Source of the DNA: Bradyrhizobiaceae bacterium
Lineage (GTDB): Bacteria; Pseudomonadota; Alphaproteobacteria; Rhizobiales; Xanthobacteraceae
Reading direction: 5' to 3'
DNA length: 39,698 nucleotides
Assembly (NCBI GenBank): GCA_947481635.1
Contig: CANKHJ010000017.1
Span: 1 to 39,698 of the forward strand
In this document: one piece after another, positions 37,824 through 39,698 of the stretch
Numbering within the stretch: the stretch's first letter is position 1
How the letters are laid out: each line of letters starts with the position of its first letter
Notes under the pieces: generated by a model
The model's database searches: none
The model's input: only the letters and a program-made list of their open reading frames with translations
Told to the model about the DNA's origin: nothing
Program-made: the position numbers and the translations under genes

Positions 37824-38948
37824 CTACGGAGCGGATGGCGGAAACGGCCAGGACGGCGGAGCGCCGACCTGGCCGCGCTGGCGCAGATAATGGTCCGCGA
37901 TCACGCAGGCCAGCATGGCTTCGCCGATCGGCACCGCGCGGATGCCGACGCAAGGATCATGCCGGCCCTTGGTCGAAATCTCGGTCTCGCGCCCGTGGCG
38001 ATCGATGCTGGCGCGCGGCGCGAGAATCGAGGAGGTCGGCTTCACCGCGAAGCGCGCCACGATCTGCTGGCCGGTCGAGATGCCGCCAAGGATGCCGCCG
38101 GCCTGATTGGAGAGGAAGATCGGGCGGCCGTCATTACCCATGCGCATCTCGTCGGAATTGGCTTCGCCAGTGAGCGTCGCGGCCGCGAAGCCGGCGCCGA
38201 TCTCGACGCCCTTCACCGCGTTGATGCTCATGAGCGCGGCGGCGATGTCGGCGTCGAGCTTGCCGTAGATCGGCGCGCCGAGGCCCGGCGGCACGCCGTC
38301 CGCCACCACCTCGATCACCGCGCCGACCGACGAACCGCTCTTGCGGATCGCGTCGAGATAGCCTTCGAAGAATTTCGCCTTCTCCGCGTCGGGGCAGAAG
38401 AACGGATTATTGTCGACCTCGTCCCAGTCCCAGCGCGTCCGGTCGATGGTCTCCGTGCCCATCTGCACCAGGGCAGCGCGCACCGAAAGACCGGGCACGA
38501 CCTTGCGCGCGACCGCGCCGGCGGCGACCCGCGCCGCGGTTTCGCGCGCGGACGAGCGTCCGCCGCCGCGATAATCGCGCAGGCCGTATTTGACGTCATA
38601 GGCATAGTCGGCATGGCCGGGCCGATACTTGGAGGCGATGTCGGCATAGTCCTTGGAGCGCTGGTCGACATTGTCGATCAGCAAAGCGATCGGCGTCCCG
38701 GTGGTCACCTGGGCCCCGCTGGCCGGGTCCTGGAAGATGCCAGAGACGATGCGCACGGCGTCGGGCTCGCGTCGCTGAGTCGTGAAGCGCGACTGGCCGG
38801 GCCGGCGGCGGTCGAGGTGGTGCTGGATTTCCGCCTCGGTCAGTGGGAGCGCGGGGGGACAGCCATCGACCACGCAACCGATCGCCGGCCCGTGGCTTTC
38901 GCCGAAGGTCGTGACCCGGAACATATGGCCGAAGGTATTGAAGGACAT
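37824..38948 (-). CDS. aroC: Chorismate synthase
   Basis: This 374-residue enzyme makes chorismate from 5-enolpyruvylshikimate 3-phosphate, the last shared step of aromatic amino acid synthesis, using reduced FMN. Conserved parts are the N-terminal [19 protein letters not shown], the [17 protein letters not shown] stretch, [15 protein letters not shown], the [20 protein letters not shown] signature and GGISTGQQI. All are intact and the length is normal. The ATG follows a GGGGAAA site that is part of the palindrome CCCCGCGCGGGG (38955-38966), which could partly hide it. It leads an apparent operon with ribBX, which also serves an FMN-linked pathway. Confidence 0.97.
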
Positions 38949-39245
38949 GCGTTTCCCCGCGCGGGGCTGTGGTAGCCCGCAAGGGGGACAGGGTCAAACC
39001 ACGGCAACTGCGACGACACGGCGTCCTGAACGGGCATTCAACTCCCTGAACGAAGATTAATGCCAAGCTGAATGGCCGTTAAGCTACTGAAATAACACAC
39101 TTTTTTACGAATTTCCCATTGCGGCTTTGGGTCGCATGCGCTAAACATGACCATGGCAAGGGACGGAAGGGGCAAGGCGGGTCATCGCCAACCGAGCTCA
39201 CTCCCCGGCGACCTGCCGGTAACATGGTCCACAAAGGGAACTCCA
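38949..39245. other. Divergent intergenic region between aroC and the lysine-repeat gene
   Basis: About 300 bases carry no gene. A GC palindrome (38955-38966) precedes aroC. The middle (about 39060-39125) is AT-rich, with ttttttacgaatttccc. It must contain two divergent promoters, but I cannot assign boxes with confidence. Confidence 0.5.
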
Positions 39246-39698
39246 ATGCGCAAATTGATCGCTATCGTTGCTGCTCTCGGCTTCCTGGCTTCGACGAGCC
39301 TGCCGTCGATCGCCGCGACCGTCGGCAACGGCGTCGTGAAGATGGATGACGTCTCGGCCGCGAAGAAGAAGGCCAAGGCGAAGAAGAAGGCCGAACTGAG
39401 CACCGATATCTCGGCTGCCAAGAAGAAGGCCAAGGCCAAGAAGAAGGCCGACCTCAACACCGATCTCTCGGCTGCCAAGAAGAAGGCAAAGAAGAAGGTG
39501 ATGAAGAAGAAGGCCATGAAAAAGGCCGACCTGAACACCGATCTCTCGGCCGCCAAGAAGAAGGCAAAGGCCAAGAAGAAGGCTGACCTGAACACCGACC
39601 TCTCGGCCGCCAAGAAGAAGGCAAAGGCCAAGAAGAAGGCCGACCTGAACACCGACCTCTCGGCCGCCAAGAAGAAGGCAAAGGCCAAGAAGAAGGCC
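39246..39698 (+). CDS. Exported lysine-rich tandem-repeat protein (3' end beyond the window)
   Basis: The plus-strand frame opens with an ATG at 39246 and is still open at the last base (151 codons). A signal peptide is clear (MRKLIAIVAALGFLASTSLP, cleavage near SIAA). From residue 37 the protein consists of 19-residue repeats of the type SAAKKKAKAKKKADLNTDL. The first two differ slightly, the third is expanded to 26 residues (KKVMKKKAMKK inserted), the fourth and fifth are exact, and the sixth is cut by the window. Each unit joins a highly basic Lys/Ala stretch to a short D-L-N-T-D-L spacer. I do not recognise a family; a periplasmic or extracellular role such as binding anionic polymers is only a guess. 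Confidence 0.8.
   Translation, partial: MRKLIAIVAALGFLASTSLPSIAATVGNGVVKMDDVSAAKKKAKAKKKAELSTDISAAKKKAKAKKKADLNTDLSAAKKKAKKKVMKKKAMKKADLNTDLSAAKKKAKAKKKADLNTDLSAAKKKAKAKKKADLNTDLSAAKKKAKAKKKA
39354..39698 (+). repeat. 57-bp in-frame tandem repeat array
   Basis: The array encodes the 19-residue repeats. Units begin at the TCG serine codon at 39354, 39411, 39468, 39546, 39603 and 39660. The third is 78 bases long and the rest are 57. Late units are nearly identical at DNA level, while the first uses different codons, a pattern of recent duplication at the 3' side. Copy number may vary between strains. Confidence 0.85.

Follow-up and report, generated by a model that had tools for sequence, protein, structure and literature searches.

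The slot between aroC and fabI in Xanthobacteraceae appears to be one regulated locus with a polycation product, for which there are three unrelated ways of making it. We put the probability of this reading at about 55%. Behind a common promoter region, the slot contained either genes for lysine micro-peptides, genes for lysine-rich repeat proteins with a signal peptide, or a gene for a membrane synthetase of the Pls/PosA family, which makes cationic homopolymers. The repeat protein and its homologues are designated X, as a working name. The window is the whole stretch of DNA that was analysed, 39,698 nt from a Bradyrhizobiaceae bacterium. It contained the following features at its end.

37824..38948, minus strand: aroC (chorismate synthase), the divergent neighbour that marks the slot; open reading frame named from sequence, with tblastn matches in 16 of 18 homologue loci
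39027..39083, plus strand: control element of three tandem units TGAA[CT]-N5-TT[AC]A at 21-22 bp spacing; from upstream alignment
39119..39147, plus strand: inferred promoter, TTGCGG (39119-39124), 17 bp, TAAACA (39142-39147); from sequence reading
39233..39239, plus strand: Shine-Dalgarno sequence AAAGGGA of X; from sequence reading
39246..39698, plus strand: X, putatively exported lysine-rich repeat protein, 3' end cut by the contig edge; from ORF reading, homologue alignment and profile search
39246..39317, plus strand: signal peptide MRKLIAIVAALGFLASTSLPSIAA of X, conserved among homologues; cleavage point inferred
39354..39698, plus strand: six repeat units SAAKKKAKAKKKADLNTDL and variants in X; from Tandem Repeats Finder and codon comparison

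The X frame (39246-39698, plus strand) stayed open up to the contig end. Its start was placed at the ATG at 39246 rather than at the upstream ATG at 39147, because the homologues begin with MRK and because of the ribosome site AAAGGGA. The signal peptide was followed by six SAA-KKK units starting at residues 37, 56, 75, 101, 120 and 139, and the 57-base array scored 224 and 350 in Tandem Repeats Finder. An earlier note on this DNA had described, at the window edge, a signal peptide with at least six extremely basic units behind it, and the reading frame and repeat analysis bore this out. Its repeat length of 19 residues agreed with the unit spacing except for a single interval of 26. A basic-core pattern had five matches in the window, compared with a mean of 0.00 over 100 shuffles, and with up to three mismatches it found no site outside the X array in the whole 4.89-Mb assembly. 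With a 24-residue signal peptide assumed, mature X consisted of 37% lysine and carried a net charge of +35.

The window is the entire contig C17 in an assembly of 338 contigs, and the 3' end of X is therefore missing. The customary next gene, fabI, sits on contig C53, which opens with other genes. The family C-terminus pattern gave no match in the assembly, and the extension past 39698 that the earlier note had proposed recovered neither the full array nor the C-terminus. On the fabI side of the slot, positions 1-1400 of C53 appeared to encode two exported proteins, one YkuD-like and the other small and Gly-rich; the slot was bigger in this genome than in the relatives inspected.

Codon differences between equal-length repeats of one gene were counted pairwise as silent or replacing, the pairs not being independent. 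The silent:replacing counts were 13:0 in G003, 18:0 in G094, 23:9 in the window, 12:3 in G314 and 2:1 in G028, while G302 ran the opposite way (6:8); the remaining X genes had no equal-length pair or contained N and were omitted. In most genes tested, repeat copies changed mainly silently.

The existence of homologues, on which the earlier note had made its reading depend, was confirmed in other Xanthobacteraceae genera. Matches to X occurred in four of 61 genomes (its own and 60 relatives), namely its own, G003, G028 and G032. A profile search found X in 19 of 391 family genomes and eight of 47 genera. Among these 19, G070 seems to be unrelated; it has neither aroC nor the strict element. It and G262, which also looks unrelated, were retained in the homologue counts of their searches. 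Searches at order and class level (397 and 385 genomes) gave no convincing member outside this taxonomic family, which was taken to be Xanthobacteraceae. An extra order-level match, G616, was an exported basic protein with a different C-terminus and was judged unrelated by eye. A scan of genome contigs with the repeat protein as query found no relatives, probably owing to its low complexity, and tblastn against plasmids and phages with the low-complexity filter on gave no X matches. A profile search of the PDB gave one match (E=0.1).

The homologues shared the signal peptide and repeats of X, and full-length members ranged from 67 to 240 residues. Nine members ended in [VE]I-x-Y[RQ]IAA, and the other ends were lysines, CPKM or CKKM. 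In four of 15 X loci (L043, L046, L071 and L044) the repeats contained Cys pairs, as in CKKNPKLKGC, and much less lysine (23-26%). A fifth atypical locus, in G339, had a frame-broken gene. For the G003 homologue, not the window protein, AlphaFold predicted a helical model of low confidence (mean pLDDT 65, pTM 0.26). No Pfam or NCBIfam model attained its cut-off for the X proteins scanned. A literature search turned up no paper recognised, among the matches listed, as dealing with these proteins, the micro-ORFs or the locus, and most subscription journals lie outside its coverage. These results supported the assignment of X to a probably undescribed family of basic repeat proteins with a signal peptide. 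The earlier note knew of no described family. This held in that no model cut-off was reached, but exported repetitive basic proteins are known as a kind (Asr, NF033636), from which X is separated by profile.

By tblastn, aroC adjoined X in 16 of 18 homologue loci, and fabI lay on the opposite side in 13. Alignment of 17 upstream sequences showed a block common to X genes, consisting of the tandem units followed by a stretch rich in T and a -35 of the TTGC type. Under a lenient rule, all X loci but G003 (14 of 15) had TTG[CT] at 45-52 bp from where the last unit begins. A consensus promoter scanner found no promoter at 39119-39147. In the whole assembly CTGAAYNNNNRTTAA matched twice, both times upstream of X, and the backward control pattern matched once. 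CenR was set aside as the regulator: TGA recurs here at 21-22 bp, unlike the CenR motif, which is TGA-N8-TGA (PMC9275681).

The 391 family genomes were then searched with a 25-base element pattern, which was derived from X promoters and contained no coding sequence, allowing up to two mismatches. It matched 48 sites in 47 genomes, compared with 12 sites for the backward control. aroC adjoined the element in 44 of the 47 genomes, one of which (G274) stops at a contig end. The 43 readable slots contained a micro-ORF in 23 cases, X in 15 and Pls in five. Three genomes with neither aroC nor a lysine gene were taken as chance matches, as was a second site in G012. In this survey 33 sites were read afresh and the 15 X genomes were assessed from previously collected loci; the latter include four Cys-type genes, one with a broken frame and, in addition to the window, one cut by a contig end.

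Features outside the search pattern were also scored. An adjacent repeat unit was present in 22/23 micro-ORF, 12/15 X and 5/5 Pls loci, compared with 0/4 chance sites. TTG[CT] within the following 50 bases occurred in 23/23, 14/15, 4/5 and 1/4, respectively, under a lenient rule, and its position varied among the Pls loci. A terminator core (GGCCGGAC..GTCCGGCC), sought with one regular expression, followed 10/15 X and 11/23 micro-ORF genes, 0/5 Pls genes and 0/4 chance sites.

Among 80 named aroC loci, the strict 16-base unit was found in nine, two with X (L078 and L082) and seven with a lysine micro-ORF. L073, the eighth micro-ORF locus, had the relaxed form only, for which 28 of the 80 loci were searched. 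The other 70 loci had no lysine gene and no Pls in the DNA examined, some stretches of which were short. At Labrys loci L122 and L137 (4413-4715, minus strand), the aroC-fabI slot appeared to hold an exported basic protein. That of L122 had a borderline PsiF repeat (PF07769; 20.7 bits against a cut-off of 21), and the relaxed pattern found no element there. The window protein and nine homologue-search hits gave no PsiF profile match.

Thirty micro-genes were found in 25 loci (those of 23 genomes from the element search, L073 and L080). Their products (MAKKKSKKK, MATKKKKAKKKSK, MAAKKKAKKAKKKM and similar) were 9-19 residues long with 6-10 lysines and had no signal peptide. The peptides at the eight named micro-ORF loci, six of which are contigs also counted among the G-labelled genomes, were of 12-16 residues. 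Genes of 9-19 codons are shorter than gene finders usually call. Under a lenient rule, a ribosome-site-like tetramer lay within 18 bases upstream of all 30. Applied to 874 kb (the 80 named aroC loci and the window), a strict micro-ORF rule picked out the slot of eight loci; it also matched once inside an X gene and once as a stray with no ribosome site. A looser rule (36% Lys, any start) added six strays outside slots.

Tandem copies were seen in G009 (L226; four, about 156 bases apart), G034 (L216; two) and L080 (two). Two of the G009 copies use AGC for serine and the other two TCC, a silent swap. Over seven micro-ORF pairs at least 75% alike, the differences by codon position were 10, 10 and 21, and the silent:replacing count was 15:11. 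The coding evidence from substitutions alone was modest. A role of the micro-ORFs as attenuators or leader peptides was set aside, as the four loci read downstream of them showed no gene of greater length on the same strand. The X repeat SAAKKKAKAKKKA resembles these peptides, and X may, as a hypothesis, have arisen by amplification of one of them behind a signal peptide.

The five Pls slots (G134, G012, G079, G181 and G195) represent two genera. In the first four, the slot gene encoded about 1,400 residues and matched TIGR02353 at 693-710 bits (cut-off 423); that of G195 was contig-cut and matched to Pls by tblastn only. PF00501 and PF00550 (adenylation and carrier) were present in both slot Pls scanned with Pfam, and TIGR01733 in all four. 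In the four longer loci, fabI appeared to lie on the far side of Pls. With two slot synthetases as queries against the collected loci and the window, tblastn (E<=1e-20) gave matches at Pls loci only, and no sequence relation of X or the micro-ORFs to Pls/PosA was found.

The specificity positions, in GrsA numbering, read D-F-E-A-L-G-S-V-T in G134, G012, G079 and G181 alike. The Asp and Glu that bind both substrate amino groups (A4 motif) were present in all four. The positions were assigned by motif to the scheme of PMC10522769, in which the first Asp and the Glu are conserved among cationic-polymer synthetases and position 2 is Phe for diaminopropionate or diaminobutyrate (Dap/Dab), Met for ornithine and Ala for lysine. 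The lysine-type Ala was absent from the slot Pls, all four having Phe as in the PDAP/PDAB synthetases. By this rule the predicted product is a polycation, but not polylysine.

In G079, the one Pls operon scanned in full, Pls was followed by an acetyltransferase of the GNAT type (55.9 bits in Pfam against a cut-off of 20.7), whose nearest PDB sequences were spermine/spermidine acetyltransferases, and by a phosphopantetheinyl transferase (62.3 bits; cut-off 27). A similar GNAT frame in G134, scanned with NCBIfam only, attained no cut-off. The slot Pls proteins ended in YRIAAE (G079), PRIAAE (G181) and PAIAAE (G134) at L239, L240 and L237, but in ALAAE in G012, and X ends in YRIAA. This likeness may be a coincidence or may reflect a common 3' end.

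An AroC tree with 63 rows served to trace the history of the slot; it included 19 of the 70 loci with neither lysine gene nor Pls, and four Pls rows (G181 left out). The fewest changes among X, micro-ORF and Pls were six, or 13 when those 19 loci were included, the deep nodes being weak. Pls required two changes, one of them forced by well-supported branches; the micro-ORFs and X required seven and six, with three forced in each case. Genus g62 has both X (G061, G094 and G115) and Pls (G134, G181 and G195).

One promoter region and one slot appear to serve three unrelated product types, and a polycation is the simplest common factor. The micro-peptides of 9-19 residues, the repeat proteins including X, and the polymers of the Pls/PosA synthetase would answer a common need for a lysine-type polycation, turned on by a regulator binding the tandem 21-22 bp repeats. 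X itself would be a Sec-exported polycation, unfolded or loosely helical. A polycation role for X gained support from the presence of the X-type promoter region before Pls/PosA synthetases in relatives. The Pls/PosA enzymes (epsilon-poly-L-lysine, delta-poly-L-ornithine; TIGR02353) make the product class proposed for this locus, a polycation of diamino acids; unlike their products, X and the micro-ORF peptides would be ribosomal. In the least certain step, the polycation outside the cytoplasm would bind LPS, capsule, peptidoglycan or extracellular DNA, or shield the stressed envelope. The earlier note had suggested that X could coat anionic polymers, bind extracellular DNA or buffer acid stress; its idea of polyanion binding would fit this step.

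An Asr-like role for X, as an exported disordered basic protein of acid or envelope stress functionally apart from the micro-peptides and Pls, was considered unlikely. E. coli Asr consists of a signal peptide and basic repeats, and X shares this build and its strong basicity; the conserved upstream element would also suit a stress regulator. Asr differs from X in repeat, C-terminus and location. NF033636, titled 'acid resistance repetitive basic protein', matched neither the window protein nor any of the eight family members scanned at E<=1, and its sole scorer was the doubtful G070 protein (21.9 bits; cut-off 50). This role would also leave the element before the micro-ORFs and Pls unexplained. 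That element could instead regulate aroC or form an RNA of its own, with functionally unconnected lysine-rich genes coming and going in the slot, as its position between divergent genes and its frequent adjacency to aroC might suggest. We regarded this as improbable: all 43 readable slots contained X, a lysine micro-ORF or Pls; the 70 named aroC loci lacking a lysine gene had no copy of the strict unit, and the 18 of them checked with the relaxed pattern had no match to it; and Rfam gave no match for the element region in 11 loci. In G075 the element preceded X with no aroC found within 11 kb, a single instance of association with X rather than with aroC.

Binding of nucleic acids, by micro-peptides and X in the manner of histone tails and by X on extracellular DNA, would suit the lack of a signal peptide in the micro-peptides, and lysine-rich histone tails are similar in composition to both. 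The signal peptide predicted for X and the nature of the Pls products, which are not ribosomal proteins, count against this reading, which was considered very improbable. Hardly any weight was given to neutral expansion of a low-complexity lysine-rich repeat. The repeat number and unit do vary widely across species, and the frame-broken G339 and the replacing excess in G302 are in its favour; the mostly silent copy differences in G003, G094, G314 and the window argue against it, as does the conservation of signal peptide, C-terminus, promoter and slot.

The reading of one polycation locus with three kinds of product has its own difficulties, the main one being the micro-peptides with no signal peptide. 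Either they act inside the cell, or they leave by another route, or what the three types share is not an extracellular role. The predicted use of Dap/Dab rather than lysine by the slot Pls also counts against it, as do the four Cys-pair, low-lysine X loci and frame-broken G339, the codon ratio of G302, the modest micro-ORF count and the absence of the terminator at Pls loci. Further points against it are the restriction of Pls to two genera with one forced change, the backward-control sites, a search pattern learnt from X, the many aroC loci with neither lysine gene nor Pls, and the poor structure predicted for the G003 protein. Many of the genomes sampled were MAGs.

The genes, their common promoter region and slot, and the mainly silent repeat change in most genes tested were observed directly; export of X, regulation through the element and interchangeability of the three types are what the sequences suggest. 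The chance that ribosomal micro-peptides, repeat proteins and a non-ribosomal synthetase re-equipped one polycation locus during evolution was put at slightly below even. We rated as new the micro-genes for lysine peptides and the putative interchange of product types behind a single promoter; the single parts resemble known kinds (an Asr-like protein, Pls). PMC9606270 describes bacterial polycationic homopoly(amino acid)s as being of unclear biological significance. If a synthetase is indeed exchanged for simple encoded lysine peptides, the role of such a polycation would become testable. Ribosomal and non-ribosomal polycations would then be functional equivalents, with the charge and not the isopeptide bond under selection, and the locus would bring to light a conserved gene family whose members have only 9-19 codons.
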